The translations under genes were made by a program, and so were the position numbers. Shown in pieces: positions 4,624 to 36,321 of a DNA stretch of 36,321 nucleotides; the stretch's first letter is position 1, and each line of letters begins with the position of its first letter. Under the pieces are notes generated by a model. It saw only the letters and a program-made list of their open reading frames with translations. It was not told where the DNA came from and did no database searches. Source of the DNA: a virus; IMG/VR virus record IMGVR_UViG_3300005613_000206, positions 1 to 36,321 of that record; one strand, 5' to 3'.

Positions 4624-6327
4624 TCAGACGAGATCTTGGATAACGACCAAGCCGTACATATCTGGACGGACCATCTTCTTAGCGTAGCGTGTCATGACGC
4701 CCTTACGAGGCACGAAGTCCTCGACGCCGAAGATTGTCGGAGTCATTTGGAGTGGAACGTATGGAGCGTAGACATAGCCGCTTTCAAGGAAGGAAGCGCC
4801 CTTACGACCGCAAAGAACAACGTTTCTTGGGAAGTATGGATCAACGTAAACGTCGAACTTCTTGCTCAAGTTTCCAACTCTGACTGCGCCAACTGTGCCG
4901 CGTGCGTCTTCGTGAGTAACAGAGCCACGGAAGCCTGCGGTGAACTCAAGAAGGTTAGCAACTTCTGGGGAGACGACAATGAAGTTAGCGCCGCCGCGAA
5001 GTGTCTTGCGGTGAATTTGAGCAGAAACATCGTTGATTGTTTCAGCAAGTGTCTCGTACCATTCAGAGACATTACCAGTGAAGTCTGGGTAGCCGAGAGA
5101 TGTTGGGTCAAGCGCAGCGCCTGTCTCACGGTTAACGAACTTACCTGGAAGTCTGGACCAATACAACTTGGAAGCAGTTGCGCCCTTGACAAGATCTTCA
5201 AGGATTTCTTGGTCGATTTCGAGAGCAATGTGCTCGGAAAGAACAGAAGTCAACTCAACTTCTGCGTCAAGGTTGTGGTACGCATTAAGGTCTTGTGCCA
5301 ATTCTGGTGTCCACTTAGCCTTGAGCTTCTTGGTCTTCGCTGTGACGGAGACGGAATCGACCTTGATGTCGATCTCTGGGATTTCTTCACTGTTTTCAAG
5401 ACCCCATGTATCCGCACCAACAACAGCACCGAGAGTACCAGCAGCTTGGAAATTATCGTCGATGACGAAGGAAGCTGTGGTGACTGTTGCCATAGAAGCA
5501 GTAGCAGCACCGATGCTAGAACCAGTCATAACAACGATAAGGTCACCAGCCGAGACAGAAGCAGCCAATGAGGCAGCAATATCATTTGCGTCAGCATCAC
5601 GAGTAAGACGACGAATCATTCCGCCAACCTTTGTAGAAGCGGCAGCGCCGGTCTGAGCAGAGATTGTGACATAATCCTTAATATTGAACTGACCATTTGT
5701 GAGGGTGGAAAGCGCAACCTTACCGACAGCAACGGAAGTGCCAACAAGGTCCGGATCATAACGGACAAGGCGATCAACATCATCACCAGCGCTAGGTGTT
5801 CCAACAGTACCAGAAGCAAGGAGTGTAAATGATGCCTTGATGGAGGCTGTTGGAGAGGAATAACCATTGTTGAGCGCATAGAAGCTTTGCTCCGCATTGC
5901 GACCAGACAAGGAAACACCACCTGTGATTTGAGAACCAACAACGCCGCCGCCGAAGACGGAATCTCCTGCTCTCGCAGAAAGACGTGCGCGTTCAATTTG
6001 GAAATCAAGGAAGAAAATGAGACCAGATGGAAGGCTCATTGGCTGAACGGAAACGAGGTCGTTTGCGATCAATCCGCCGAAAACGCGGCGAACAATTGGG
6101 AATGCGACAGAAGCAAAACCTTCAACGTCGCCACCAGCCATAGAAGAAGCTTCGCGAAGAAGTTCCTTAGCTTGGTTTTCAAGAAGGGACGCCATACCAT
6201 GGCGAGTTCTTTCGTCTGTGAGACCTTCGAGAAGACCTGTCTTTTCCCACTTGGAGAGAAGAGCAGCACCTTCCTTGGAGAGATCTCTACGAACGATGCC
6301 TTCTGTAAGTTTTTCAAGAATAGACAT
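4624..6327 (-). CDS. gp23: Major capsid protein, T4 gp23-like (HK97 fold)
   Basis: The 567-residue product carries the T4 gp23 signature near residues 76-108: AFPIVRRVF...LIAND(L)VSVQPM followed by LPSGLIFFLDF. Near 491-526 it has VYVDPY, a GRKG turn and GYVYAPYVPL, and near the end a TRYAKKMVRPDMYG segment, all typical of gp23-type capsids. The N-terminal 59 residues are helical and charged, as in the removable gp23 propeptide; LRE|A at residues 57-60 fits the prohead-protease consensus (L/I-x-E before a small residue). It forms the hexameric shell. The start follows AGGAG. The gene lies directly after scaffold and a short distance after the protease, and ends at a strong terminator. Its G+C is visibly higher than that of neighbouring genes, consistent with an abundant protein. 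Confidence 0.95.
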   Translation of the reverse strand: MSILEKLTEGIVRRDLSKEGAALLSKWEKTGLLEGLTDERTRHGMASLLENQAKELLREASSMAGGDVEGFASVAFPIVRRVFGGLIANDLVSVQPMSLPSGLIFFLDFQIERARLSARAGDSVFGGGVVGSQITGGVSLSGRNAEQSFYALNNGYSSPTASIKASFTLLASGTVGTPSAGDDVDRLVRYDPDLVGTSVAVGKVALSTLTNGQFNIKDYVTISAQTGAAASTKVGGMIRRLTRDADANDIAASLAASVSAGDLIVVMTGSSIGAATASMATVTTASFVIDDNFQAAGTLGAVVGADTWGLENSEEIPEIDIKVDSVSVTAKTKKLKAKWTPELAQDLNAYHNLDAEVELTSVLSEHIALEIDQEILEDLVKGATASKLYWSRLPGKFVNRETGAALDPTSLGYPDFTGNVSEWYETLAETINDVSAQIHRKTLRGGANFIVVSPEVANLLEFTAGFRGSVTHEDARGTVGAVRVGNLSKKFDVYVDPYFPRNVVLCGRKGASFLESGYVYAPYVPLQMTPTIFGVEDFVPRKGVMTRYAKKMVRPDMYGLVVIQDLV

Positions 6328-6347: not shown

Positions 6348-7328
6348 TTATTTGTGTGATTTAATACCGGCCAGAATCTGCATTCTATCCATTGCTGGGC
6401 TTCCAACAGTTCTGTCCGCTCTTCTAGGCAAGTTGGCAGAGGGTCTTTCAATAGTCTCACGAAGTGATTGTGGCTGCGCCTTACCTACAACACTGCCCAC
6501 TGCGTTTTCTAGAGTCTCGAAGATTACCTTTGCTTCTTCAACCGAACGAGCCTCTGACAAAGCATCAACAATTTTATCTTTTTGTCGCTCATTCAGGGAG
6601 CGGTTTGTCAAAGTCTTGTTCGTATAAACAAGTCGAGCATTGGAAAGATTAACCTTTTCCATGCTTTCCTTTAAAGTGTTAACTGAGTCGATCAAAGTGG
6701 AAAACTTAGTTTTAAGATCTTTGTTTTCCTTTGTCAACTCTTTGTTGGCTGCGATAAGTGCTTCATTTTCTTCTTGTGCCTTCGTAGAAGCCATGCGCGC
6801 CATTTCAAGTTCTTGCTTGAAGTCCATAATATCATCAGGTGTACCAGCCCAGCCTTCTTTTTGGGGCTCGATGTCGACAATCAACTCTTCGATGATTGCT
6901 TCAAGATCTACTGTATCAATCTCTTCTTCGAGAGCAACAGCAACATCAACAGGAGCAATTTCATCACTTGCTTCTGCTGGTGGAGTAAGGGTCTCTTCTG
7001 CTGCTGCTTCGTGAGAGACTGGCTCTCCCATAAGGCTTTCATCTTCGGCAGCCAAGGTATCAGCCATCTTTTGAAGCTCATCCATATCGAGAGTAATCAT
7101 TTCTTCGTCAGAAGCTTCATCTTCGGGGTCGGCAGCAAGAGGAATATCGCCAGATACAGTTTCGGCTTCTGCCTCAGCACCTACTTCTTCTTCTTGTTCC
7201 AGAAGATTTTCAACTGCTTCGCGAATATCATTGGAATACTTATCCAAAAGAGCAGATTCTGCGTTTTTGATTGCCGCATCTTTAAGTGCTGCGGCATCGA
7301 TGATTGCTTGTTCTAACAATGAAGACAT
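6348..7328 (-). CDS. Prohead core scaffolding protein, T4 gp22-like
   Basis: The 326-residue product is highly acidic and helical. Residues about 1-55 form an Ala/Glu-rich helix, 55-165 are a strongly acidic region with many Glu, Asp and Ala, and 165-235 are a predicted coiled coil (repeated E-K-L-N patterns with LTKENKDLKTKF). A basic C-terminal tail with RADRTVGSPAMDRMQ follows. This composition, and its place between the protease and the major capsid gene exactly as in T4 (21-22-23), supports an internal scaffold that is degraded during maturation. Scaffold sequences diverge quickly, so the call rests mainly on composition and position. The start follows AAGGGGA. Confidence 0.75.
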   Translation of the reverse strand: MSSLLEQAIIDAAALKDAAIKNAESALLDKYSNDIREAVENLLEQEEEVGAEAEAETVSGDIPLAADPEDEASDEEMITLDMDELQKMADTLAAEDESLMGEPVSHEAAAEETLTPPAEASDEIAPVDVAVALEEEIDTVDLEAIIEELIVDIEPQKEGWAGTPDDIMDFKQELEMARMASTKAQEENEALIAANKELTKENKDLKTKFSTLIDSVNTLKESMEKVNLSNARLVYTNKTLTNRSLNERQKDKIVDALSEARSVEEAKVIFETLENAVGSVVGKAQPQSLRETIERPSANLPRRADRTVGSPAMDRMQILAGIKSHK

Positions 7329-7404: not shown

Positions 7405-7782
7405 CTATTCGGTTATACCTGAACCTGTAAGGGTGAACATCTCTTCTGAGTTAATACCTGTTAAGGAAGCAAAGATTCTAAATTGAAGACCACTTCCTGA
7501 AACATATATCTCTTTACATTTTACATCAAACTGCGCAGATGAAGGATGTGATCCTGTTTTTTCTAAATGAAATTTGTTAAGATTTGTTGCGTTTTCATTA
7601 AAGTAAAAATACAAATCATTTGAGCCAGCGCTATCTATATGGAAAGTAACAAGTTTTGTAACTCTGGGAAACTCGATCTTCATGACGCCACTAAGACTAT
7701 CTGATCCTGTGACGAAAGGTGTCCCGGAAGCCATATAAGATGAGGCGTTGTGAACCCCTGGTCTGTATTGATAAATTGACAT
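7405..7782 (-). CDS. Conserved small virion protein, probable head-associated
   Basis: This 125-residue protein begins MSIYQYRPGVHNASSY and has alternating hydrophobic/polar strands (KLVTFHID, DLYFYFN, KEIYVSG, LQFRIFASLTGI), suggesting a single beta-sandwich domain. It has no membrane segment or signal peptide. It sits inside the head cluster between the bS21-like gene and the scaffold gene. A capsid decoration or head-completion role is plausible by position and fold type, but no diagnostic motif is present. The start follows AGGAG with 7-nt spacing. It ends at an AT-rich hairpin. Confidence 0.7.
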   Translation of the reverse strand: MSIYQYRPGVHNASSYMASGTPFVTGSDSLSGVMKIEFPRVTKLVTFHIDSAGSNDLYFYFNENATNLNKFHLEKTGSHPSSAQFDVKCKEIYVSGSGLQFRIFASLTGINSEEMFTLTGSGITE

Positions 7783-7812: not shown

Positions 7813-8127
7813 CTACCTTCTTCTTCTATTCTTTTTAGGTTTCGGAAGCTTATCGTCCGTACCAACTCCACCGTCTCTCATTTGCTCATATCTTTCTTGT
7901 GCTTTGTCGAGAACTTTTTGTCTTCTCTTACCCGCCATTCTTCTCTTGACGGAGGGCTTTTCAAATTCACCACGAGCACGATACTTTCTAACAATATCTT
8001 GCTTCTTGCTTTTTCTCAAAAAACGACGAATCATTCTGTCGACTGAATCGTTTTTGTGTCTCAACTTTTCTGAAACATTTACTGCCCTCTTTGTTTGGGG
8101 CTCTCTACCGTGTGTCCTGTTAGACAT
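7813..8127 (-). CDS. rpsU: bS21-like ribosomal protein (phage-encoded)
   Basis: The 104-residue, strongly basic product contains a bS21 core at residues 28-75: SVDRMIRRFLRKSKKQDI, then RARGEFEKPS followed by KRRMAGKRR. In bacterial bS21 the equivalents are the ALRRFKR motif, a spacer of about 14 residues, R-R-x-F-Y-EKP and a basic tail. The hallmark RRF and EKP elements have the right spacing. An N-terminal extension of 27 and a C-terminal tail ending KKNRRRR make it longer than the usual 70. bS21 binds the small ribosomal subunit near the anti-Shine-Dalgarno region and helps initiation; phage copies are known and thought to bias translation. Here the gene lies among head genes with a GGAG ribosome-binding site. 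A DNA-binding internal head protein is the main alternative. Confidence 0.72.
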   Translation of the reverse strand: MSNRTHGREPQTKRAVNVSEKLRHKNDSVDRMIRRFLRKSKKQDIVRKYRARGEFEKPSVKRRMAGKRRQKVLDKAQERYEQMRDGGVGTDDKLPKPKKNRRRR

Positions 8128-8138
8128 TATAACTCCAA

Positions 8139-8573
8139 TTAAATCATTTTCTTCCAGTTCTGTCCAGAACCGATTGCCATAATTCCGCTGATATCGACAC
8201 CAGCATCGTTTGGCGCATATGCCGAAAGAGGGCTTGAAACCTTTGAATCACTAGATGGACTTCCACCCGAAGAGAGTGGCTGCGTTCCTTCAAACACAGA
8301 TCCAATCCCAACTGCTTCTTCCAGCCTCTTTCTCTTACTATCCATCTCCGCTCTCGCATCTTGCTGTAATTGATAATCTTGAATTGGTTGACGCTCAATC
8401 TGTGTAGATTGAGTTTGTGGAGCGACTTGGCGTGTTTCCACAATTGTCTGGTTTCCAATTCCAACAGCGACTTCTTTAATGATACCAGAAAGAACACCTT
8501 CTTCGAAGATGACTTCCTTGATACATTGCTTAATGAGTGGCTTTAAGACTTCTTGTAATTCTTTCTTTTTCAT
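8139..8573 (-). CDS. Conserved hypothetical head-cluster protein
   Basis: The 144-residue product has an N-terminal amphipathic helix (KKKELQEVLKPLIKQCIKEVI), a Gln-rich middle (residues about 50-80), a charged helix and a Ser/Gly-rich tail that ends with DAGVDISGIM and a WKKMI terminus. No enzymatic motif, membrane segment or signal is visible. Its start overlaps the stop of the prohead protease gene by 1 nt (TAATG), so it is co-translated with the protease. A small internal scaffold or core component would fit the position, but this is inference. Confidence 0.7.
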   Translation of the reverse strand: MKKKELQEVLKPLIKQCIKEVIFEEGVLSGIIKEVAVGIGNQTIVETRQVAPQTQSTQIERQPIQDYQLQQDARAEMDSKRKRLEEAVGIGSVFEGTQPLSSGGSPSSDSKVSSPLSAYAPNDAGVDISGIMAIGSGQNWKKMI

Positions 8574-9184
8574 TATTCATCCAAGATTTGTTTTAGGGCA
8601 CGATTGATTCTATCGGCTTTTGTGAAAATATTTGGCTTGTCGTATTCCTTGCCTTCTTTGAGTGCCATAAAAGCATTTGGTGTTGAAGGTTCAGAAACAA
8701 AATCAAAGCAGATTAGTTGGAAATCATCTTCAACAATCGTGCCTTGCATGGACTCGCGAACAGAACCAAGACCACGAGAAGAGATGCCAAGCTTGACTCC
8801 GGAATCAACAAGAGATTTCAAAATCTGACCTGATGGGGTGTTCAAGACCTTGACAGTTCCCATGACCTTTGGTCCATCCATCCAAATGTTTGTGACCATA
8901 TGAGAAGCGTTTTTAAGGTTGATAACAGAATCATCTGGGTGATCGAGTTCACCGAGTGCCCTCTTTTCTCTTACAAGCTTCTTATAAACTTCAATCTCTC
9001 TTTTGAGAACATCTTCTGGATAAACTCTGCCGTTTCCGTTTTTGACTCCGCACTGTTGCATAAGTCCGGTCAAATACATGGCATTGTTTTCTTGAATATC
9101 TCTTTTTTCTTCTTCTGTTAGAAGGTCTCTACAAACTCCGCCTTCGCAAAGTTCATAGTATTCTCTTAGCAATACTTTGCTCAT
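8573..9184 (-). CDS. gp21: Prohead core protease, T4 gp21-like (peptidase S77 type)
   Basis: The 203-residue product shows the prohead-protease layout: an NGR(V)YP segment at residues 51-56, GELDHP with the likely catalytic His82, MVTNIWMDG and VMGTVKVLNTPSGQ, then LGISSRGLGS with the likely nucleophile Ser135 or Ser136, and a DFVSEPS segment. These are conserved in T4 gp21 and related herpesvirus-assemblin-fold proteases. It cleaves scaffold and capsid propeptides after head assembly, usually after L/I-x-E. It starts at an ATG preceded by GAGGA. Placement between portal and scaffold/capsid genes matches T4 order. Confidence 0.93.
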   Translation of the reverse strand: MSKVLLREYYELCEGGVCRDLLTEEEKRDIQENNAMYLTGLMQQCGVKNGNGRVYPEDVLKREIEVYKKLVREKRALGELDHPDDSVINLKNASHMVTNIWMDGPKVMGTVKVLNTPSGQILKSLVDSGVKLGISSRGLGSVRESMQGTIVEDDFQLICFDFVSEPSTPNAFMALKEGKEYDKPNIFTKADRINRALKQILDE

Positions 9185-10108: not shown

Positions 10109-10929
10109 TATTCTTCAATCTCCTTCGCAAGATTTTGGATTTTGAGAACATCATGGATAAACTTGTTATCGATATCTCTTTGCTTAAAGCCATCAATGAC
10201 ATCAAGAACCTTTTGTGTTCCTTCTAAGATAGTCTCATCTTGCTTAACTTCTGTAAGTTGGGTTGAGCTTTCAACAACTTCACGAAGACGACCAATCTCT
10301 TCACTCAAAAAAGCTTTAAGATCGATTCCGTTGTCTGAGAAAGAACCGATATAATGTTTGAGGAGTTCCTTCTGTTCGGAGAGAAGAGATTCGCCATACT
10401 TTTCATTGAACTTCTTGACAAATGTTTTGTATGTTAAGTTATCGATTGGCTTAATTGATTCTCTTTCCCTTGCTTCACCGGAGAGCATATTTTCAATGAC
10501 TTGATTTTCAAGAAGAACTCTTTGTTTTGCTTTTGTTCTTGGATGAAAAATCTGGAAGACTGTTGCTAAATCTTTGTAGTTCGGAACGAAATTGTTGAAA
10601 ACTTCTGGTGAGACTTCTTTGTTGATAAGATCAATGACTTCACTTTGCTTTTCGAAAAGAACTTTATGATTAATCGACATCTTAATCATTCTTGCTTCAA
10701 AGATGAGCTTTTCGGCAGTCTTTTTATCAAGATCTTTTGATTCAAGAATAGTCTTGTATGCTTCAAGGTCTTTTGCGAGAAGAGTTCTTCCTTTGAAGTT
10801 TTCTCTAATGATCCTAACAATCTTCCTTTGCTTTGACTTGTCCTGAGCAACAACAGCTTTTGTTAACTCTCGAATCAAAGCCTCAAAGATAAAAGCGGTG
10901 TTGCGCTTTTTATTATGCTTCATTTTCAT
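10108..10929 (-). CDS. Conserved helical protein downstream of portal
   Basis: The 273-residue product is almost entirely helical and rich in Lys and Glu. It begins with a basic stretch (KMKHNKKRNTAFIFEALIRELTKAVV) and contains several charged helices, including one near residues 140-175 and an acidic C-terminal helix. The start ATG at 10929 lies inside the end of the portal gene (17-nt overlap) behind GGAG with long spacing; an ATG two codons later is an alternative. No domain is recognised. Coupling to portal and position before the protease suggest a role in portal or prohead core assembly, which I cannot confirm. Confidence 0.75.
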   Translation of the reverse strand: MKMKHNKKRNTAFIFEALIRELTKAVVAQDKSKQRKIVRIIRENFKGRTLLAKDLEAYKTILESKDLDKKTAEKLIFEARMIKMSINHKVLFEKQSEVIDLINKEVSPEVFNNFVPNYKDLATVFQIFHPRTKAKQRVLLENQVIENMLSGEARERESIKPIDNLTYKTFVKKFNEKYGESLLSEQKELLKHYIGSFSDNGIDLKAFLSEEIGRLREVVESSTQLTEVKQDETILEGTQKVLDVIDGFKQRDIDNKFIHDVLKIQNLAKEIEE

Positions 10930-12865
10930 TTATTTCAGTCTCCGATTTTTCTAGATCAGCAATCAAGTCTCGAATTTCAGTCGATACTTCGAATAGTAGC
11001 TTTTCATCGCTGTCGTAAGTAGTTTGTTGTGATTCGTAAATTCCACGAGATAGTTGTTTCATATCTGAATATCCTGAGACAACATCTTTTGGCTTTGGGA
11101 TCGCAATGTTTGTGTAATTCTGAATTCTGCCGTTTCTACCATCACCGCCGCGCTTAGTGGTGGAAACATACTTTTTGCCTTTTGCTCGCTTACCCTGAGA
11201 GTTCTTTGTTGTTTTACGATCTCTATCGTCTCTCTTAGCGGGGGCGGCGAGAAGTGGTCCCTCTTCTGCCTCTTCGGCGGCGGGTTCTTCTGTGGGCAAT
11301 TCAGGCACTGCCTCTTCTTCACCGCCAATATCAAGTTCTTCTTCACCGCCAAGCTCTGCCGCGCCCAAGTCTTCTTCGTCACCAGCGCCGATGGCTGCGT
11401 TAAATTCTGCCGTAGCTGCTTCTGCGACAGCGCCAAGCTCAGCCTCAAATTTACGATCATGGAACATCTCTCTTTGATTCCTGACAAACTCTTCTTCCGA
11501 AAGGTTGAAGATATTTTTAGAAATCCAACGACGAGAGAAGAAGTTTTCTGTTGCGCCGCCTGCGATTTCAAACTTAGTTTTCCACTCTTCCAAGTCTTGA
11601 AGCTCAGCAATCTTTGAAGGGTTGTTCAACTTGAGCTTAAAGCTAACCAAATCGTCTCCACGGAAACCGAGAGTATACAAGTGAACAATACCAATCTTTT
11701 CCAATTCAGTGATAACAGAGCGTTGAAGTCTTTGAATTGTTCTTGCGAAACGAACGTCTTTTTGAGCCAAAGTTGTTTTATCTTCTTGTGCTTCGGAATC
11801 ACTTGATAGATAAGCAGATGGAATCTTCAAAGCTGAAAACATCTTATCTCTTAGGTATTTAACGTCGTCGATATCGCCAGTAAACTGACCGCCAGCAAGA
11901 GTATCAATTCTTGAAGATTCTCCGCCGCGAACTGGAATAAAGTAATCTTCTTCAACGTTTAGCGGATTGTAACGAAGATCGACGCGACCTGTGCTGGCAT
12001 CAACAACTTGATTACGCTTCATAGATGTGATTGTTTTTTGAACAAACTGTTCAACGTCCTGCGGCGCGATAGATCCAACGTCAATATAAAAGACTCGTCT
12101 TTCAGAAGAACGAACGATACGATAAGCCATCATTGCGTCTTCCATAAGAACTAACTGTCTCCAAATTCTACGAGCAGGATCAAGAACAGAAGTTCCATAT
12201 GGAGCATACTTATCGTTTCCGAGAATCCTAAAATGAGCAATTTGCCAGTTTTCGAAAGTCATCCCAGCAGAGTTCCACTGATACTGGACATAGTTTGGAT
12301 TCGATGGGTCTTCGCCTTCTAATCTTTCAACTTCTCGGAGAGGAATAGGAATAACAGACTTTACACCGATTCTATCATCAATGTCCAAATAAAGAATGAA
12401 GTCTCCATTCTTGACCATAGAACGAGACCATCCGAAAAGATTGTGTTCAAGATTCAAAACATTAATATAAAGAGATTGAAGAACTGCCCTAATCTCCTCG
12501 TTCGGACAATCAATACGAAGCATAGGGCTCAGAGAAGAGTGAGTTGTCATTTCATCTGCGTAGATATCAAGAGCAGAAGCAATCTCCGGCATATATTCCA
12601 TTTGGTCATAATCGATATATCTTTCTGATCTGTTTTGATTTGCCATGATTTTACTTTGCATGACATCAAATGGGCTGTATGCTGCCTTTTTGAATTGTTG
12701 ACCAGAAGCAGATCTGAACTCTGTTGCGTATTTATCAAGCTCAACTCTTCTGATTTTTCTGTTTGTTTGCGTTCTCCAATTTGTGATTGGTCCGGAGAAA
12801 AGTCTCGTCAAACGACGGAATAACTCAGACTGAGGATTGTTTGGATTCTTTGTATTATCTGCCAT
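10913..12865 (-). CDS. gp20: Portal vertex protein, T4 gp20-like
   Basis: The 650-residue product matches portal features: residues 80-110 ERYIDYDQMEYMPEIASALDIYADE, then VKNGDFILYLDIDD near 151-164, PIPLREVERLEG near 173-183, ILGNDKYAPYGTSVLDPARRIW near 214-235, SSERRVFYIDVGSI near 253-266 and ALKIPSAYLS near 345-354. These are conserved in gp20-type portals of T4-like phages. Twelve copies form the DNA entry vertex and nucleate the prohead. The last 155 residues are unusual: an acidic stretch (496-537) is followed by a Lys/Arg-rich stretch (544-580) and then a final helix. The start lies 3 nt after the terminase stop, whose last codons supply the AAAGGA ribosome-binding site. Confidence 0.95.
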   Translation of the reverse strand: MADNTKNPNNPQSELFRRLTRLFSGPITNWRTQTNRKIRRVELDKYATEFRSASGQQFKKAAYSPFDVMQSKIMANQNRSERYIDYDQMEYMPEIASALDIYADEMTTHSSLSPMLRIDCPNEEIRAVLQSLYINVLNLEHNLFGWSRSMVKNGDFILYLDIDDRIGVKSVIPIPLREVERLEGEDPSNPNYVQYQWNSAGMTFENWQIAHFRILGNDKYAPYGTSVLDPARRIWRQLVLMEDAMMAYRIVRSSERRVFYIDVGSIAPQDVEQFVQKTITSMKRNQVVDASTGRVDLRYNPLNVEEDYFIPVRGGESSRIDTLAGGQFTGDIDDVKYLRDKMFSALKIPSAYLSSDSEAQEDKTTLAQKDVRFARTIQRLQRSVITELEKIGIVHLYTLGFRGDDLVSFKLKLNNPSKIAELQDLEEWKTKFEIAGGATENFFSRRWISKNIFNLSEEEFVRNQREMFHDRKFEAELGAVAEAATAEFNAAIGAGDEEDLGAAELGGEEELDIGGEEEAVPELPTEEPAAEEAEEGPLLAAPAKRDDRDRKTTKNSQGKRAKGKKYVSTTKRGGDGRNGRIQNYTNIAIPKPKDVVSGYSDMKQLSRGIYESQQTTYDSDEKLLFEVSTEIRDLIADLEKSETEINENEA

Positions 12866-12868
12866 TGC

Positions 12869-14458
12869 TTATCCTTTGATTAGCCAAGAGTATTGGTTGT
12901 ATTGCTCTTGTTGTTTGAACATTTTATCTTCTAATGCTTCGCTTTTTTTATACCCTTGTTGTCCGGGTATCGTAGTGTTAATCTTTGTATTTACTTTAAC
13001 CATAGATGTCAAGCAAGCTTTCTTATATTCTTGTTCCCTCGAATTAACCGTGAGTGCTGTATCTCTGATCCAACATCCAATAGCCAAAGCCATAATCAGA
13101 TCATCGTTATAGCCCCTCATTGATTGAGGCTTGCCATTTTTCCAAATGAAAGTTCTCAGTTCGTTAGTAAAACGCACAGAGTTTATTTTAATTAGTTTGT
13201 TTCTGATGAATTCTTCCAGTTTTGCGACAATCAATGGTCTCGTCTTTGACGAGGTTGTAAAGCCAGGAACAGCACCAGAATGATTTTCGCCTTGATGGCT
13301 TTCAACAAACTCGTGAGTTGATTTGATGGAATAATAAATGTTTGGATACCCAAGGTCTATCAATTTCTCCAAAACTGAAATACCGATGCCAACATTCTCG
13401 ACAACCAGAAGACAATTTCCATATTCTTTTCCAGTTGAATTGAGGATGTCAGCGTATAAATCCAGACTGGGCTTGCCTTGATATTCAGCAACAATTTCCA
13501 TTGTTTCCAGCTTTATAACATGGAAAACAGAAAAGTCTGCACCGTCACCTCGCGCCACGTCAGCAACAAGTAAGTAAGTGTTCTCATTATTGTATTGCTC
13601 CCAAATCCAAAGGTTTCTATCAAATCCAGTTCTATATTTTGGTTCTGATACTTGCTGCTCAAGATAGGTGATATCTTCTGGGTGGATAACACTATCACCA
13701 GAAGTATTGAAGTTACATTCAAGCTCTTGGGCGATTTCCCTTCGAGACATGTTTCTGGTTTCTCGCTCGAACCATTCTTGGTCTCGCTCTGGGTGAATGT
13801 TCCACGGAAGGATTACCGGGTGAAAATCATTTGCTGACTCTTCTGCTTCAACATAAGTTTTGTGAAACCAGTTACCAACACCATTTGGTGTACTCAGGGC
13901 AATACAGCGACCACCGGTAGAAATCGTAGGATAAAGACCGGCCCACAACTCTTCAAGGTTATCAATGTGAGCAGCCTCGTCAAGCACCAGAAGAGAAAGG
14001 GCTTCCGAACGTCCAGCGTCCCCTGAAGTGCTCGCAGCCTTGATTTGAGAGCCGTTTGAGAGTTCAAACGATGCGCGGTTGTCAATTGATATCTCGGCTA
14101 ATACGAGCCATTCTGGAAGGTTTTTCATAATAGCCTTAACCTTCTTGACCAAGTTTGCTGCGGTCGCAAACTTTGTAGCCATAACCAAGATATTCTTATC
14201 TCGATAGAAAAGCATCAGCCAAACAATGTAGGCTGCGGCAATTGTAGAAATACCAAGCTGACGTGCTTTTAGGATAACTGTAAATCGATAATCGTTGAAA
14301 TCTTGCAGCAAGTCCGCTTGATACGGATAGGTCTTAAAGGGAATTAGTCCCTTAATAGGATGCGAAATTCTCGCATAATTGTTTGTAAAGTAAACCGGGT
14401 CTTTACCGCATTTGACGATTTCTTTTACTATCTCTTTTTTGGATAGCTTATAAGACAT
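12869..14458 (-). CDS. terL: Terminase large subunit (ATPase and nuclease), T4 gp17-like
   Basis: The 529-residue product has an N-terminal packaging ATPase: adenine-binding TYPYQ near 43-47, a Walker A variant KARQLGIST at 64-72, Walker B LLVLDE with D160/E161, and coupling motif STPNG at 189-193. The C-terminal RNase H-type nuclease carries likely metal ligands D300 (VAD), E354 (VVEN) and D452/D453 (GYNDDLIMAL). It cuts concatemeric DNA and drives it through the portal encoded next. It is a little shorter than T4 gp17 (610). It starts at an ATG behind AAGGA. All key residues appear intact. Confidence 0.96.
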   Translation of the reverse strand: MSYKLSKKEIVKEIVKCGKDPVYFTNNYARISHPIKGLIPFKTYPYQADLLQDFNDYRFTVILKARQLGISTIAAAYIVWLMLFYRDKNILVMATKFATAANLVKKVKAIMKNLPEWLVLAEISIDNRASFELSNGSQIKAASTSGDAGRSEALSLLVLDEAAHIDNLEELWAGLYPTISTGGRCIALSTPNGVGNWFHKTYVEAEESANDFHPVILPWNIHPERDQEWFERETRNMSRREIAQELECNFNTSGDSVIHPEDITYLEQQVSEPKYRTGFDRNLWIWEQYNNENTYLLVADVARGDGADFSVFHVIKLETMEIVAEYQGKPSLDLYADILNSTGKEYGNCLLVVENVGIGISVLEKLIDLGYPNIYYSIKSTHEFVESHQGENHSGAVPGFTTSSKTRPLIVAKLEEFIRNKLIKINSVRFTNELRTFIWKNGKPQSMRGYNDDLIMALAIGCWIRDTALTVNSREQEYKKACLTSMVKVNTKINTTIPGQQGYKKSEALEDKMFKQQEQYNQYSWLIKG

Positions 14459-17800: not shown

Positions 17801-20299
17801 TTATGGAAGACCCAAAAGATTCTTCAACTCTTGAACGAACTGAACTGCTTCCGTTGTACCAACGGGTCCAGGAGGAAGAGTACCGAGAGCATTGACAAGA
17901 GCGCTGGTAATGGTTTCATGCTGGTTGACTGCCGCAGAGTTATTAGCAACGTCTTCGCCAATTGAGTATGGCAAGTTCATTGTTTGAAGAGTGCCTGCTG
18001 AGTCCTTGACGTACATAACCATTCTGTCATTTGCGCCGTCGGAGGCGATCATGTAAGAAGCCCAACCGTCATTTGTCTGATTAGCATTAAGCACAAGCAT
18101 ATTACTTGTATCAGCATAAGCAACAGGAGGAGCAATAACATTGAATCCTCTATTGTGACTCATTTGGGCGATGTGATCAATGCCACCCTGAGCATATCCG
18201 TTGCCAGAACCCTCGCGAGTACTTCTGAATTGGAAGAGTGTTCCATTTGTATTGGTGTATGACCAAGTTTCGGCTGCTACAACACGCATCCAAGCTGCTG
18301 GAAGTGGTCCTTGGTTTGTCGCGTAACCACCGAATTCAACTGCGCCAAGCACCTGACCAGAAAGTGGGCGCTTTCCTCCGATGGAAGTTGCTTCATAAGT
18401 GTCGGCAGCAGCATACATTTGGATTTTTGAGTCGCCACCCCAAGAAACCAAACGAATGAGGGCATCTCCGCCATCGGCTGCGGATCCACCATTTGTGCCG
18501 TCACCCATTGCGAATGCTGAAATAAGTGGCATATTTTCTTCTGTAGTGGAATCATAATCACCTTCACTCATCTGCCTTTCAACGTGGAATACACCGCGAA
18601 CAGCTAAATCTGTGTTAGAGGTTGCTGGATAAGCGGTATCGCCCTGGCTGTGGTCATTCGCTTGTCTAATGGTGACACGAGGAGCACCGTCCCAAGAACT
18701 GGAAGCGTCGACCATGAACAATGGGGAAGTATCGCCAGCATTGTAGATCGCAAACGGTGTATCAGAAGAACCTGAAATTGTGACCGCTGTGGTTGTCAAG
18801 CTTGTAGCCAAAGCAGTAGCCAAGGAGGCATCAGCAGAAGCAAATGCTGTTGCTAAGGAAGCGTCAGCGGTGGCGCGTGCGCTCTCTTCGGCGGCGACTC
18901 TTGTTGTTAAAGAAGAATCAGCAGCAAGGCGAGCAGCTTGTTCATCAGAGATATCGGAACCAGCATTTGCTTCATTTTGGTCAACGTCAGCTTGAACTGC
19001 GGAAATTGCTGTCGCAAGAGATGACGCCACAGAAGCACGAGAGGATGCCTCGCCGGAGATAGAAGTAGCCAAAGAAGAATCAGCAGCAGATCTGGAAGAT
19101 GCCTCGCCAGAAAGTGCGGTATCGAGGGAACTAATATCTGCGTTTGTAGCAGAGATTTCCGCATTGAGGTTGGAAACAACAGAAGCAACTGCGTTATCAC
19201 CGTCTGTGTCAACTGCGTTAATCAAGGAAACAACTTCAGCGAATGTGTCCTTGTCTGCGTCAGCGGACGCGAGAATCGCATCAACACGAGCTTTCTCTGT
19301 GGAGACTGCTGCGGAGATGAGTGTATCAACAGAGGCACGAGCGGTTTCTTCTGCTGCGACTCTTGTTGTCAAGGATGAAGAGGCAGTTTCTTGTGCGCCA
19401 ATTCTTGTTGCCAAAGAAGAAGAAGCAGTCTCTTCGGCACCAACTCTTGTGGAAAGAGAGTTAACAGAATTTGCCAAGCCGGTGTCGACTGTTGCCAAGG
19501 AGGTAACTGCTGTGGCGCGGACAGCTTCTTCTGTGGAAATTCTTGTTGTCAAGGAAGAGTCGGCTGTGCCGCGAGTCGCCTCTTCAATAGAGACTCTTGA
19601 AGCAAGAGAAGTATCAGCACCCGCAGAGGCGTCAATTCTTGTAGAAAGAGAGTTAACAGAATTAGCCAAGCCAGTATCAACTGTCGCCAAAGAAGAAACC
19701 GCAGTAGCACGGGTTGCTTCTTCTGTGGAGACTCTTGTTTGAAGTGAAGCATCTGCTGTGCCGCGAGTTGCTTCTTCGACAGAAACTCTTGAAGTAAGAG
19801 AAGTATCAGCGGCTGCGCGTGCTGTTTCCTCAACACTCAATCTTGTTTGAAGAGAGGCATCGGCGTTTTCAAGAACCCCAACTGCGCCACCAGAAAGTGA
19901 ACCAAGAACTGTATAAACTTGGTCGCCGCCAGAGATAAGAGTATCTGGTGTGTTAGTGTCGTCAGAAAGGTCGCCATCAATATAGATTGGACCGGTTCTT
20001 GGATAAAGGTAAGCAACGTGGTCAGCTTCGGATGTCTGCATATAGAATGCTGTGTAATCACCCCAAGCGAATGTGAAAGAAGTTGGGAAGTTACCAGCAG
20101 AAAATGCCTTTACGGAAGTCCAAGAACCATCAGCATTCTTGAACCAGGCTGTGTAAGCCTTAGCTGAGTTAACATAGATACCGGTTTGACCGGCTTCCTT
20201 GACGGCACCGACTGTTACATTATCGGTTGGTGCCGCCGAACCGATAACTTCTGTGTCATTACCCAATGCGACGGTAATGTTAGAGCTAAAATCTGCCAT
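17801..20299 (-). CDS. Long tail-fibre protein with coiled-coil repeat stalk and duplicated C-terminal module
   Basis: The 832-residue product has three parts. Residues 1-141 are a unique N-terminal domain, probably for virion attachment. Residues about 142-499 are low-complexity repeats (SLxTRVSxEEATRxTAD type), including exact 18-residue periods and a larger duplicated unit with SLATVDTGLANSVNSLSTR; this predicts a trimeric coiled-coil stalk. Residues 500-832 are the module shared with the 407-aa protein downstream. The start at 20299 is behind GGAGGA. A motif variant lies 84 nt upstream and a strong terminator lies downstream. Host-adhesion function is inferred from architecture. Plus-strand frames over the repeats are shadows. 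Confidence 0.88.
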   Translation of the reverse strand: MADFSSNITVALGNDTEVIGSAAPTDNVTVGAVKEAGQTGIYVNSAKAYTAWFKNADGSWTSVKAFSAGNFPTSFTFAWGDYTAFYMQTSEADHVAYLYPRTGPIYIDGDLSDDTNTPDTLISGGDQVYTVLGSLSGGAVGVLENADASLQTRLSVEETARAAADTSLTSRVSVEEATRGTADASLQTRVSTEEATRATAVSSLATVDTGLANSVNSLSTRIDASAGADTSLASRVSIEEATRGTADSSLTTRISTEEAVRATAVTSLATVDTGLANSVNSLSTRVGAEETASSSLATRIGAQETASSSLTTRVAAEETARASVDTLISAAVSTEKARVDAILASADADKDTFAEVVSLINAVDTDGDNAVASVVSNLNAEISATNADISSLDTALSGEASSRSAADSSLATSISGEASSRASVASSLATAISAVQADVDQNEANAGSDISDEQAARLAADSSLTTRVAAEESARATADASLATAFASADASLATALATSLTTTAVTISGSSDTPFAIYNAGDTSPLFMVDASSSWDGAPRVTIRQANDHSQGDTAYPATSNTDLAVRGVFHVERQMSEGDYDSTTEENMPLISAFAMGDGTNGGSAADGGDALIRLVSWGGDSKIQMYAAADTYEATSIGGKRPLSGQVLGAVEFGGYATNQGPLPAAWMRVVAAETWSYTNTNGTLFQFRSTREGSGNGYAQGGIDHIAQMSHNRGFNVIAPPVAYADTSNMLVLNANQTNDGWASYMIASDGANDRMVMYVKDSAGTLQTMNLPYSIGEDVANNSAAVNQHETITSALVNALGTLPPGPVGTTEAVQFVQELKNLLGLP
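18802..19876 (-). repeat. Coiled-coil-encoding repeat region of the 832-aa fibre
   Basis: Many imperfect units code for SLxTR-(V/I)S-xEE-xxR-xxAD, with a clear 54-bp (18-residue) period at the start and a second, longer direct duplication of SLATVDTGLANSVNSLSTR with its flanks. Related units occur at 36163-36320 and in the gene at 1-984. This is protein-coding repetition, not a CRISPR array. Confidence 0.85.
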
Positions 20300-20437: not shown

Positions 20438-23400
20438 TCAGATATTAACATGGGCAAAGCCATCTTTTTTGTCAATTGTAATCTGCATGTCCACACAATC
20501 TTTGAGGCTGTCTAAGTGCGAAATCAATAGGACTGTCTTGAAATAAGACTTAACCAAGCTCAAAATATCAATGAATCCCTGCATATTCTCTTCATCAAGC
20601 GCTGTCCCTGGCTCATCAAGAATGAAGATGTCAGACTTTGGTAGAGACGAAACACTGAGGAGTGCGAGGCGAATTCCCATTGCGGCAATCGTCTTTTCTG
20701 CTCCAGAGCCCATCTCAAGAGGGCGTGGCTCATATGAAGGATGTTTGATAAAGATATTGAGCCTGTTCCCATCATCTTCAAAGAAGACTTCAAAGTCACA
20801 AATGTTTGCCAAGATTTTAGCAATCTCGCCATTGATGACTGGAAGTTTTCTTTTGATAACGTCATATGCGATTCCATTCGGATGCATACAGCGCATATAA
20901 AGATCATAAGCAGAAAACTCAGCTTGAAGATTTAAGAACTCTTCTTTTTGATCTTTAATTGTTTGGACCCTTTGCTCGAAAGAGCCAACCTCCTTGTAAA
21001 AGTCCATAATTTTTGACTGAGATTCAGCCAAGTTTGTTTCAAGAGATGCCTTGGTGTATTTCAGATTTTTCATTTTCTGATTGTATTCTTCCAGGTTCTC
21101 GATTACTTCCTTATTAAGTTCGTAATGAGAAAGCTGGGTCTCCAACTGTTCGATCTCTTGAATCAAAGTTTTAATAATTGTTTCGTTCTTTTCAATCTTC
21201 AAATCATACTTTGTGATTTGGTTTGAAAGAGTGTTCTTCTTGTTGATAAGTTGGTTGTATTTGTCAAGATCATCATTAATCTTGTTTGAATCAAGCTCTT
21301 TCAACTCGTCTGAGAGGTTTTCTGTTTCTTCTGTAATCCGATCAATTTCTTTTTCATTGCTCGGAATCTTTGCTTTCGCAGCATAAGCGTCCTTAATGAA
21401 CTTACAAGTTGGATACGAAGAGCCACAAGGAATCTGACTTAGAATCTTTGTCTTATCGTTGTTTCGTCCAAGTTCTTTTTTGAGGTCTTGAAGCTCTGAT
21501 TCTGCTGTTTGAAGTTCTGAAATCAACTCGTCTGCCTTTTCACGCTTTTCCTGTAATGATTGTAAATCAAAAGCAGACTCAAAGTCAAGGATTTTTTCGT
21601 AAGTTGCCTTATCTTTTTTCCTCTTATCTTCAAGTTCGGTGTTTTCATCTGAAAGAGAAATCATTTGATTCTTCTTGTCTCGAAGATCATCTTTGAGACG
21701 AATTGTGTCGATTGCTTCTGATGGAATCGAATCGATCTTCTCTTTCAGGACCGCAATCTCTTCTGTACAGTTTGCGATTCTTTCGTTGATCTTTTCACAA
21801 GCTTGTTTCTTAGCTTCAAGATTTTCATTTATTTCGTCGAGTTTACCTTGTGTCTCTTCGATTTCTTGGTCGTAATCGCGGTTTTCAAGGCGACGAATAG
21901 CAGCGCGAGTATCAGCAGCATCCTCCTTTGCGAGCTTAAACTTCTTCTCAAAGAATTCGAGGTCAAGGAACTTGGCCAGGATTTCTTTGCGTTTTGTTGA
22001 GCCTTCTTTAATGAAAGCAAGAGAGTCCATTTGGGTCGACATAGAGGAATACATAAAGTCATCAAGTGTTCCAAAGACTTTCTTGATGTTCTTATCTGTT
22101 TCGTTTCTCGTCATTCCGTTCAGGCTCTTCACATCGTCTGTAACTGGGTCATAGACGCTGAACTCTACGTTTGTTTTTGCTTCGAGGGTTTCTTCGCCTT
22201 TGAGTCTCTTGGTGTATTTTTCAGACTTTCGCTCAATGTAATAGTCTCGCTCTCCAACAGAAATCATAACACGACCAGCGCCGTAATCTCGGTTCTGGTT
22301 GATGATGTTTAAGTTCTTTCTGTCGTTCTTTGAAGTCGAGTTGAAGACTGTGTAAAGCAGAGAATCAATTGTGCTTGACTTTCCTGAGTAGTTCTTTCCA
22401 AAGATTCCAATAATGCCTTCAACATTATCAAAGTCAATGCGGTTATTCTCTCCATAGTTGAAAAGGTTATCCCATTCGAGGCTTCGGAGTCTCCAATTGA
22501 CGTTGCGCATAATCTCTTCGTTTTCTTCTGCGAGAGTATTATATTTGAGATTAAGGCTGTATACTTTTTCAAGAGTTTCTTTATCGATCTGGAAATCTTC
22601 AAGGTATTCTTTGATAAGATTCTCTTGAATTTCAATGTTGCGAAGATCTTCCGTCAGCAGATTCTTTGTTGAATCCTCAACATCACCTCGTGTACCTGCT
22701 GCGCGATTCAAGAACACAACGGTTTCTGGGTTGAATCGCTTCTTCGCAACCTCTGTTGCCTTTCGCATACGATCAACTGTGAGATTGTTTTCAGAAACCA
22801 AGCGTAGGCGACAACCTTCTGGGACTTTGACGTTCTTCGGCATCTTTCCAGCAGGAGTAAGAACGACCGTAACAAACGGTTTTGGATTTTTAAGCTCGAT
22901 ATGCTCACAAGTAAAGTTTTCTTTATCTTGAATATCCCAAATCAAGAATCCTTTATCATTGGTTTCGCCGTGATTCTGCTGAATTGTAGAACCACAATAT
23001 CGAATGCGTCCATCTTCATCAAGGCGTTGGTTTGTCTTGTGAATATCGCCCAAGAATCCGTAGTCGTGACCCTCAAAGATATCAATCGGGTGCTCTCCGT
23101 GCGTCATTACCCATCCAGTATCCGTCGTAACGCCAGAAATAGAGCCGTGATAAAGAGCGATATTAACATTTTCTTCATTGGAGGGAGAAACCCAGTTATC
23201 TTCGTCAAAAACAGACAAAACATTTAGGGCAAAGCCATTTCCAAGGTCAGTTTCACCCGCATTCTTCAAAAGATGAAGATTTGGGTGTTCAAGAGCATCG
23301 ACAATAGGAGAAATAGCGTCTTGACGACTGGAATTCTTCAAGTTTCCGTCGTGATTACCGAGAATGACGTAGGTTGGAGCAATACCCGCTAAGTTTGAGA

Positions 23401-23590
23401 GAAACTTGGAGCACATTTCAACAAATTCTGGTGAGATTTGTGTCTTTGTATGGGCAATATCACCGCAATGGATGATATAATCCACCTTTTCTTGTCGTAA
23501 AATTTCATACATCTTCTCAAATACGATATTATACTCGTAATGATATTTGAGGTTTTTGATGTGTGTATCACCCAAATGTGCGAACTTCAA
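20438..23590 (-). CDS. Fused SbcD-SbcC-type recombination nuclease/ATPase (T4 gp47+gp46 equivalents)
   Basis: The 1050-residue product joins two proteins that are normally separate. Residues 1-300 are a metallophosphoesterase: D8-x-H10 in LGDTHI, GD at 43-44, GNHD at 78-81, YHGS at 147-150, THGEH at 163-167 and GDIH at 181-184. Residues about 362-1050 are an SMC-type ATPase: Walker A GKNYSGKSS at 398-406, long coiled coils (about 555-890), a hook PCGSSYPTC with C722 and C729, signature MGSGAEK at 960-966 and Walker B FILDEP at 989-994. The complex resects DNA ends and opens blocked ends for recombination-dependent replication. It begins with TTG at 23590, behind AGGAG at 7-nt spacing. No internal stop or restart is seen at the junction. 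It follows the primase gene. Confidence 0.95.
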   Translation of the reverse strand: MKFAHLGDTHIKNLKYHYEYNIVFEKMYEILRQEKVDYIIHCGDIAHTKTQISPEFVEMCSKFLSNLAGIAPTYVILGNHDGNLKNSSRQDAISPIVDALEHPNLHLLKNAGETDLGNGFALNVLSVFDEDNWVSPSNEENVNIALYHGSISGVTTDTGWVMTHGEHPIDIFEGHDYGFLGDIHKTNQRLDEDGRIRYCGSTIQQNHGETNDKGFLIWDIQDKENFTCEHIELKNPKPFVTVVLTPAGKMPKNVKVPEGCRLRLVSENNLTVDRMRKATEVAKKRFNPETVVFLNRAAGTRGDVEDSTKNLLTEDLRNIEIQENLIKEYLEDFQIDKETLEKVYSLNLKYNTLAEENEEIMRNVNWRLRSLEWDNLFNYGENNRIDFDNVEGIIGIFGKNYSGKSSTIDSLLYTVFNSTSKNDRKNLNIINQNRDYGAGRVMISVGERDYYIERKSEKYTKRLKGEETLEAKTNVEFSVYDPVTDDVKSLNGMTRNETDKNIKKVFGTLDDFMYSSMSTQMDSLAFIKEGSTKRKEILAKFLDLEFFEKKFKLAKEDAADTRAAIRRLENRDYDQEIEETQGKLDEINENLEAKKQACEKINERIANCTEEIAVLKEKIDSIPSEAIDTIRLKDDLRDKKNQMISLSDENTELEDKRKKDKATYEKILDFESAFDLQSLQEKREKADELISELQTAESELQDLKKELGRNNDKTKILSQIPCGSSYPTCKFIKDAYAAKAKIPSNEKEIDRITEETENLSDELKELDSNKINDDLDKYNQLINKKNTLSNQITKYDLKIEKNETIIKTLIQEIEQLETQLSHYELNKEVIENLEEYNQKMKNLKYTKASLETNLAESQSKIMDFYKEVGSFEQRVQTIKDQKEEFLNLQAEFSAYDLYMRCMHPNGIAYDVIKRKLPVINGEIAKILANICDFEVFFEDDGNRLNIFIKHPSYEPRPLEMGSGAEKTIAAMGIRLALLSVSSLPKSDIFILDEPGTALDEENMQGFIDILSLVKSYFKTVLLISHLDSLKDCVDMQITIDKKDGFAHVNI

Positions 23591-33920: not shown

Positions 33921-36321
33921 CTAAACTGAGACCTTGGCAACTTCAACGACAGCAACCCATTTGACATTGGTTCCACCGCCTGCGCCAACATTCTGTACTT
34001 CAAGTTTAAGAGAACCATTTGTTGTATCGGCAGTTGCTGTGAATGTCCAAGTAGCAGCACCTCCGGTGGCTCCGGTCTCGGTAGTATTGGTACCAACAAT
34101 TGCCGTAGTGGCAGCACCAGTGTCCCTGGTGATTCCACCTCTAACATGCCACCAAGCAGAATCAGTACCAGAAGTATATTCCTTAGCGGTTACCATAATA
34201 TTGAAAGTATACATACTATCGTCATCGAGTGTCAACCTTAGTGTGGACCCATTTAAGAATAGCTCAGTTGCCGTAGCATCGGTTGTAAGGTTTCTTGCGA
34301 CAAATCTTGAATATTGAGCGTCACCGTTGGTAGCGAAGCGACCAGAAGAATGAGAACGCTGACCCCAGCGATCAGAAACGGCACGGAAGCCATGCGCAAG
34401 ACCGTAATCTTCGCTGACTGTGTTATTATTACCGCCAATAGCAACACCATAAGTGGCAGCAGCGGTAACTGAGTTTCCTGAGCCGCCAACAATTGTCGCA
34501 ACGACACCAGCACAGGATAAGCTGGTTCCACCAACAGTCGTAGCAAATTGCCCAGTGGCACTGTTAGAACTTCCGCCGAAGATGCTGGATAGTTGTCCCG
34601 AGGCGGTACTACCTACACCGCCATAAATTGACGAATTAGCACCGCTGGCGGTATTACTGTCACCCATTGCGAGGGCATAATTGTTCGAGGCGACCGAACC
34701 AGAACCAGCAGCAAGGGTATAGATACCCGAAGCAATATTCGTTTCGCCGCCGAGAACGATAGCCTCCTGCCCAGAGGCTGTATTGCCTTGTCCGGCGACA
34801 ACAGCGGCATTGACGCCAGAGGCTGTATTGTCTTGACCGCCAAGAATACCCGCTCGACCAGCACTAACTACATTATTTGTACCACCAACGACAGCACAAT
34901 AATCATTAGAGGCTGTATTCGCAAAGCCGCCGAGGATGACCGCGTAATCATCGCCGAGCGTGATCTTGTTATAGCGTCCAGCAAATATTCCCGAATAGTC
35001 TCCTCTATCATTGTAGTTGTCTGCGCCACCAGCAACAATACCATAATCAGCACCATTAATATCGTTATTGTTACCTCCGATAATAACAGAACCTGACTTG
35101 GCTGTCGAGAATCCATTTGTCATAGAGGCTCCGGTGCCTCCGATGACCGCAGAATTGAAATATCTACTTATTTGGTTATTGTTACCACCCAAAATAGCAG
35201 CATATTTAGAATCAGAACTGATAGAATGGTTATCTCCGATGGCGAAACTTGAACTTCCTGCTGTTGTGCTTGTTTTACCAAGTGCGACGGCATAATCGCC
35301 AGAAGCGACAGCACCAGAGCCACCAGCGATAGCGCCGATGCCTGATGCCGTATTGTTTTCGCCAGCGAGAACGATACCATAATTTGCTGAAACTGTGTTA
35401 TTTTGACCACCGATAGCGGCACCATAATCTGCCGAAACAGTGTTTCCTTCACCGACGAAGACACCGCCCCAATCTGCTGAGACAGAGTTGTTTTGACCTG
35501 CCACAATACCGCCATATGGGGCAGCAAAAGTGACTGAGTTACCTCTTCCGCCGACGATAGTAGTATATGTGCCAGCAGAATTATTGGTATTTCCACCAAG
35601 AACCGTTGCCCAAGCATTCCCTGCTATGTTTGATTGTCCACCAATAGCGGCGGCGGCGAATGATGTAGCCTGATTGGATGAACCAGCGATGACTCCTGCA
35701 TAGTTTCCACCAGCCTGGTTTCCACTACCTCCTCCGACGAAAGAAAAGTCGCCATTAGCAGAAACGGTATTGCTCTGTCCGCCTACGATTGCTGCGTGTT
35801 CAGCATTGGAATTAATTGTGTTAGATTGTCCACCAAAAATTCCTGCATATTCAGAGGTAGAATCAACAGAGTTGGATGTTCCGAATGCGAAACTTGATGT
35901 TGCTGGGGCACTGGATCCACTACCGAATGCAGCCGCATACTTACCAGCCGTATTATCAGCACCGCCGACAATAAGATTTTCGCCGAAGCGCCCATAACTC
36001 GCAGAAATAGTATTGACATGAAGTTCTCTTACTGTGCTTGCGGCGGAGCCAATATCATATGAGTTATCCACTTCTGGAAGAATGTCTCCGCCTACTGAGC
36101 CTGTCCAAGTTGGAAATTGTTCAGAAGGACCAATGGCATCGATTTGCGATTGAAGCCCAGAGTCAGCGGTGGATCGAGTGACCTCTTCGGTGGAAATACG
36201 TGCCGTGAGGCTTGAAGTGGAGCCGGAGACAGAGCCAGAAAGGTTGTTGATTGAAAGTTGGAGGGCACTATCAGCGGTGGATCGAGTGACCTCTTCGGTG
36301 GAAATACGTGCCGTGAGGCTG
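33921..36321 (-). CDS. Partial giant fibre/adhesin: coiled-coil stalk, YadA-like beta-roll, C-terminal tip
   Basis: The frame is open from the TAG stop at 33921 to the window edge, giving 799 visible residues; I decoded the upstream part to the edge and found no stop. The real start lies outside. The first 83 visible residues repeat SLTARISTEEVTRSTAD and end in a linker. A YDIGSAASTVRELHVNTIS segment follows, typical of phage fibre shafts. Then about 525 residues form roughly 30 short units of GGxxNTVSxxYGxxxGGxN type, as in the left-handed beta-roll of trimeric autotransporter heads. The last 160 residues form a tip with RFATNGDAQYSRFVARN, ATELFLNGS and TAKEYTSG segments. It probably forms a trimeric host-adhesion fibre; the receptor is unknown. 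Confidence 0.9.
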   Translation of the reverse strand, partial: SLTARISTEEVTRSTADSALQLSINNLSGSVSGSTSSLTARISTEEVTRSTADSGLQSQIDAIGPSEQFPTWTGSVGGDILPEVDNSYDIGSAASTVRELHVNTISASYGRFGENLIVGGADNTAGKYAAAFGSGSSAPATSSFAFGTSNSVDSTSEYAGIFGGQSNTINSNAEHAAIVGGQSNTVSANGDFSFVGGGSGNQAGGNYAGVIAGSSNQATSFAAAAIGGQSNIAGNAWATVLGGNTNNSAGTYTTIVGGRGNSVTFAAPYGGIVAGQNNSVSADWGGVFVGEGNTVSADYGAAIGGQNNTVSANYGIVLAGENNTASGIGAIAGGSGAVASGDYAVALGKTSTTAGSSSFAIGDNHSISSDSKYAAILGGNNNQISRYFNSAVIGGTGASMTNGFSTAKSGSVIIGGNNNDINGADYGIVAGGADNYNDRGDYSGIFAGRYNKITLGDDYAVILGGFANTASNDYCAVVGGTNNVVSAGRAGILGGQDNTASGVNAAVVAGQGNTASGQEAIVLGGETNIASGIYTLAAGSGSVASNNYALAMGDSNTASGANSSIYGGVGSTASGQLSSIFGGSSNSATGQFATTVGGTSLSCAGVVATIVGGSGNSVTAAATYGVAIGGNNNTVSEDYGLAHGFRAVSDRWGQRSHSSGRFATNGDAQYSRFVARNLTTDATATELFLNGSTLRLTLDDDSMYTFNIMVTAKEYTSGTDSAWWHVRGGITRDTGAATTAIVGTNTTETGATGGAATWTFTATADTTNGSLKLEVQNVGAGGGTNVKWVAVVEVAKVSV
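34403..35981 (-). repeat. YadA-like beta-roll repeat region
   Basis: About thirty degenerate units of 14-18 residues repeat G-G-x-x-N-x-(V/A)-S-x-x-Y-(G/A)-x-(V/I/A). The DNA is accordingly repetitive and enriched for plus-strand runs encoding ACCGCC/CCGCC on the coding complement. The unit length varies, as in real beta-roll heads with loops. Confidence 0.85.
36163..36320 (-). repeat. Exact 50-bp direct repeat in the fibre stalk (108-bp period)
   Basis: Positions 36163-36212 and 36271-36320 are identical over 50 bp, coding for the stalk unit SLTARISTEEVTRSTAD. The period is 36 residues, which is twice the 18-residue unit of the 832-aa fibre. The copy at the edge suggests the array continues beyond the window. 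Confidence 0.95.

Follow-up and report, generated by a model that had tools for sequence, protein, structure and literature searches.

Why would a virus keep a gene for a small-subunit ribosomal protein among the genes that build its head? The question is raised by a minus-strand open reading frame (ORF), 7813-8127, in a 36,321-base stretch of viral DNA (hereafter the window), whose product was taken in the original prediction for a bS21-like protein with correctly spaced RRF and EKP motifs. Descriptions of phage bS21 mostly treat the gene as auxiliary, in contrast to the fixed place that it occupies in the near lineage of this virus.

The identity of the protein was confirmed. The ORF product scores 34.8 bits against NCBIfam TIGR00030 (curated cut-off 28.95) and 28.4 bits against Pfam PF01165 (curated cut-off 27), and it also matches the PHROG S21 family. 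A profile search for a basic phage family with a better match found none, the next-best named families standing at E ~0.03 or worse, far under their own cut-offs. When the window protein alone was searched against PDB sequences, every match was bS21, and a profile of 26 relatives matched 36 sequences, all of them bS21 and including chloroplast and mitochondrial forms. Residues 25-69 align with residues 8-52 of a 71-aa bS21 chain over equal lengths, indicating that the spacing of RRF and EKP is normal. K57, P58 and S59 are invariant across the 26 relatives, and all 26 profile members match TIGR00030, the bS21 equivalog model. Chance or basic composition was ruled out as the source of the match, because the best of 5,000 composition-preserving shuffles reached 9.9 bits, whereas the window protein obtained 23.2 bits with a profile made from the bS21 of other phages only. 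A misplaced start codon was ruled out as well: the ATG is accepted because it is preceded by a Shine-Dalgarno (SD) motif and because three relatives share residues 1-71 unchanged, and no further ATG lies ahead of the core. The AlphaFold2 model contains helices at residues 29-42, 45-51 and 58-84 between low-confidence ends (mean pLDDT 74, pTM 0.36). Foldseek with this model gave ribosomal small-subunit chains, mainly mitochondrial or chloroplast, as top matches, at E > 1 and none significant. Judged by its sequence, the product is a true bS21 homologue, with bS21 as its best family match. Table 1 summarizes the features of the locus.

Table 1. Features of the bS21 gene and of the surrounding head module in the window.
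Feature	Position	Strand	Evidence or remark
bS21 gene, 104 aa, predicted pI 11.6	7813..8127	-	TIGR00030 and PF01165 above curated cut-offs
Shine-Dalgarno GGAG, 5 nt 5' of bS21 ATG	8133..8136	-	Sequence and motif scan
N-terminal extension and segment ahead of helix 1, residues 1-24	8056..8127	-	~17 residues beyond 71-aa bS21 chains
bS21 core (RRF...EFEKPSVKRR), residues 25-71	7915..8055	-	TIGR00030 match 24-72; model helices 29-42, 45-51, 58-84
C-terminal tail, residues 72-104 and stop, ending DDKLPKPKKNRRRR	7813..7914	-	DxLPxPKKxRRR ending
Terminase large subunit	12869..14458	-	phrog_2, 174 bits
Portal protein	10913..12865	-	phrog_213, 224 bits
Prohead protease (gp21-like, S77)	8573..9184	-	PF03420, 108 bits; phrog_207
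Unnamed 144-aa neighbour, between protease and bS21	8139..8573	-	Homologues at that spot in 65 cases
Unnamed 125-aa neighbour, downstream of bS21	7405..7782	-	Homologues follow bS21 in 42 cases; L003 lacks one
Probable scaffold (gp22-like position)	6348..7328	-	Lies ahead of Gp23; coiled-coil match under cut-off
Major capsid protein Gp23-like	4624..6327	-	PF07068, 250 bits

The placement of the gene within the head cluster, as originally proposed, was also borne out. The genes follow a T4-like order on one strand, namely terminase, portal, three unnamed genes, prohead protease, the 144-aa gene, bS21, the 125-aa gene, probable scaffold and Gp23, so that bS21 lies on the strand of the head genes between the prohead protease and the scaffold and major capsid genes, with family-matched neighbours. 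The scaffold call for 6348-7328 uses position and acidic/coiled-coil character only. This placement of bS21 fits late expression. The window carries a single bS21 copy, and no tRNA genes were found in its 36,321 bases. Of the two unnamed neighbours, the 144-aa gene has no Pfam or PHROG match and is nearly always situated between protease and bS21, suggesting a conserved head-module gene, while the 125-aa gene, in spite of its many homologues after bS21, is missing from the close relative L003 (L numbers denote related loci).

To determine how constant this arrangement is, 80 loci were gathered by protease similarity alone; as the best 80 of at least 589, they cover the near lineage only. Since selection was by protease similarity alone, the presence of bS21 had no influence on the choice of loci. 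Among them, a bS21 profile located the gene downstream of the protease and on the same strand in 21/21 loci that reach the scaffold and in 25/25 further loci with at least 3 kb downstream, giving a co-oriented bS21 in 46/46 long-enough loci of the best 80 of at least 589. Shorter fragments carried it in 10/16 cases (1-3 kb downstream) and 2/18 cases (<1 kb), a decrease expected from truncation because the distance between protease and bS21 ranges to 3 kb. Another 80 loci, collected via the divergent bS21 of L005, showed the same gene order. Distances of bS21 and protease are correlated (Mantel r 0.58; none of 2,000 permutations was as high, the maximum being 0.25), which fits vertical inheritance. 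Between the window bS21 and three near relatives, dN is 0.009-0.013 and dS 0.20-0.25 over residues 1-94 (dN/dS ~0.04-0.07; per-segment counts are small), and this low dN relative to dS indicates purifying selection. Because all 46 long-enough protease-selected loci carry a co-oriented copy, bS21 behaves as a core head-module gene of the near lineage, near-universal and co-oriented. Such constancy suggests that the gene has a fixed function tied to virion production.

The original prediction had considered that the protein might be packaged in virions. On this reading, bS21 would be enclosed in the capsid along with head proteins and, once delivered, would act as the next infection begins. The location between protease and scaffold and the very basic character of the protein (pI 11.6) would agree with it. 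The prohead protease of T4 cleaves at the consensus (I/L)xE. At the N-terminus of the capsid protein, an LLRE|A/S/V/T stretch is invariant, which by analogy with T4 gp23 we take to be the place of a T4-type processing site, whereas the N-terminal part of the window bS21 contains only VSE and no [LI]xE site, and [LI]xE occurs in that part in just 2 of 107 distinct bS21 proteins. Targeting of bS21 to the capsid via the prohead protease thus finds no support in these N-termini, and packaging, which might take another route, is regarded as very improbable. Similarly improbable is that the bS21 fold now serves head assembly by binding nucleic acid and plays no part in the ribosome: its invariant place in the head module and the basic C-tail in the window group could be explained in this way, but the conserved bS21 core has been kept and the bS21 equivalog model still matches every family member tested.

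The terminal extensions had been described as 27 and about 29 residues long and as unusual. Compared with 71-residue PDB bS21 chains, the window protein is longer by ~17 residues at the N-terminus and ~16 at the C-terminus, so these lengths had to be revised. Extensions of similar length at the N-terminus occur in L015, L017 and throughout the L005/L088 group, there with a different sequence; this extension is therefore not unusual but common in related phage bS21 genes. The C-tail, on the other hand, is unusual as predicted, though lineage-restricted. Across every ORF of the loci retrieved, the DxLPxPKKxRRR ending was limited to the window, the L002-L004 type (near-identical relatives of the window), L007 and L086, with a slightly altered LPKPKAKRRRR in L003, and the motif was found in no other phage proteins of these loci. 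As far as these sequences indicate, it does not extend beyond close relatives.

In Bacteroidetes, an aromatic residue of bS21 helps to hide the anti-SD sequence (PMC9723584). The position equivalent to Tyr54, set by an ungapped count after KP, is occupied by Phe or Tyr in the L005/L088 group and by Lys in the window protein, which by the same count is without the sequestering aromatic of the Bacteroidetes type. Besides, SD motifs at proper spacing precede 19/30 window genes vs 57/673 control ATGs. Because the protein lacks the hiding residue and 19/30 genes have SD motifs, the host of this phage probably uses SD motifs. The idea that SD use varies with the aromatic residue from locus to locus was rejected as too weak, the SD fraction being 0.60 in aromatic loci vs 0.69 in the others, with first-ATG starts only. 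In L088-L167, whose bS21 is of the aromatic-residue type, an SD motif seems in most cases to be missing ahead of the bS21 start, while other genes there often have one.

It is known that bS21 adjoins the anti-SD and is loosely bound and exchangeable (PMC9578407), that a viral bS21 can be incorporated into E. coli 70S ribosomes (PMC6375957), and that in lake samples phage bS21 is transcribed along with structural genes (PMC9723584). We consider it likely that the phage bS21 is a vertically kept core head-module gene whose product exchanges into the host 30S subunit and supports SD-led initiation on late phage messages. The protein would be made together with the late proteins, would swap with host bS21 on the 30S platform beside the 16S 3' end, and would then probably support SD-dependent initiation on the abundant late phage messages; this last step is suggested because phage genes have SD motifs and the protein lacks the anti-SD-sequestering aromatic. 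For the window bS21, the sequences show homology, synteny, purifying selection and SD motifs, and 30S incorporation, late timing and phage-mRNA preference are what we infer. An opposite effect can be derived from the only viral bS21 assayed in vitro, which cut E. coli ribosome activity on GFP to ~5% (PMC6375957), so the window bS21 might hold translation back instead of steering it. Acting as a poison subunit, it would displace host bS21 and shut host translation down without favouring phage messages. Nevertheless, the position in a late module means that phage late translation would be harmed too, and the assay used a mismatched host according to its authors (PMC6375957); a poison role is accordingly judged improbable. 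A stronger form of the late-translation reading is that, in an SD-using host, the obligatory head-module bS21 with its DxLPxPKKxRRR tail builds specialised late ribosomes favouring particular phage leaders, a mode distinct from Bacteroidetes anti-SD hiding; this is speculative and on balance doubtful.

Head-cluster placement of bS21 is not a special novelty, as it has already been published. In a survey of 900 phages, Chen et al. (2022, PMC9723584) found that many have bS21 next to protease and capsid genes, with co-expression late in infection, and that in 388/900 one or more core structural genes lie no further than ten genes from bS21. The Bacteroidetes-phage clades of that study resemble the window in that terminase, portal, prohead protease and major capsid genes lie close to bS21. 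Nevertheless, bS21 in their five clades is on the strand opposite the structural genes, whereas it shares their strand in the window and all protease-selected loci, which places the window bS21 outside these clades; the Bacteroidetes-phage proteins also carry an aromatic residue at the Tyr54 position instead of Lys. In Microcystis phage Mel-JY01 (PP395634), a bS21 gene annotated as rpsU occupies the same place, in the order protease, unnamed gene, bS21 (RpsU) and, further on, capsid on one strand, but its RpsU is shorter, lacks the C-tail of the window protein and has 32% identity to it. Pelagiphage HTVC008M likewise is a myophage encoding bS21, which was shown to enter E. coli 70S (PMC6375957), although pelagimyophage S21 lies outside any specific gene cluster (PMC7029224), unlike the fixed cluster of the window lineage. 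Functional precedent is provided by Francisella, where alternative bS21 copies lead to heterogeneous ribosomes and altered gene expression (PMC9578407); these copies are chromosomal, whereas the window bS21 is viral. The window is therefore a further example of a known arrangement with added detail, and what it adds is that in this lineage the gene is placed near-universally and co-oriented, with a C-tail that is lineage-specific. With related loci having and lacking the anti-SD-hiding aromatic, and the cultured Mel-JY01 sharing the layout, ribosome re-tooling for late translation becomes testable.

Close cultured relatives sought via bS21 itself gave weak matches only, and the annotated genes between protease and capsid in Flavobacterium phage immuto include no bS21. 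A search for a bacterial donor or host from bS21 gave no useful result: two genome scans yielded a single match, in a Maricaulis MAG, which proved to be a phage fragment. This contig, L177 (NZMJ01000169.1), binned as Maricaulis, carries protease, 144-aa gene and bS21 of a related phage and is a weak host hint only. Elsewhere in the window, two long repetitive ORFs on the minus strand (17801-20299 and 33921-36071), with SLTTRVSTEEATR-type and GGxNNT-type repeats and almost no family match, are possibly tail-fibre- or adhesin-like. In addition, a single 1,050-aa ORF (20438-23590, minus strand) has SbcD-like and SbcC-like PHROG matches and resembles a fusion of both recombination nuclease subunits (T4 gp47 and gp46).
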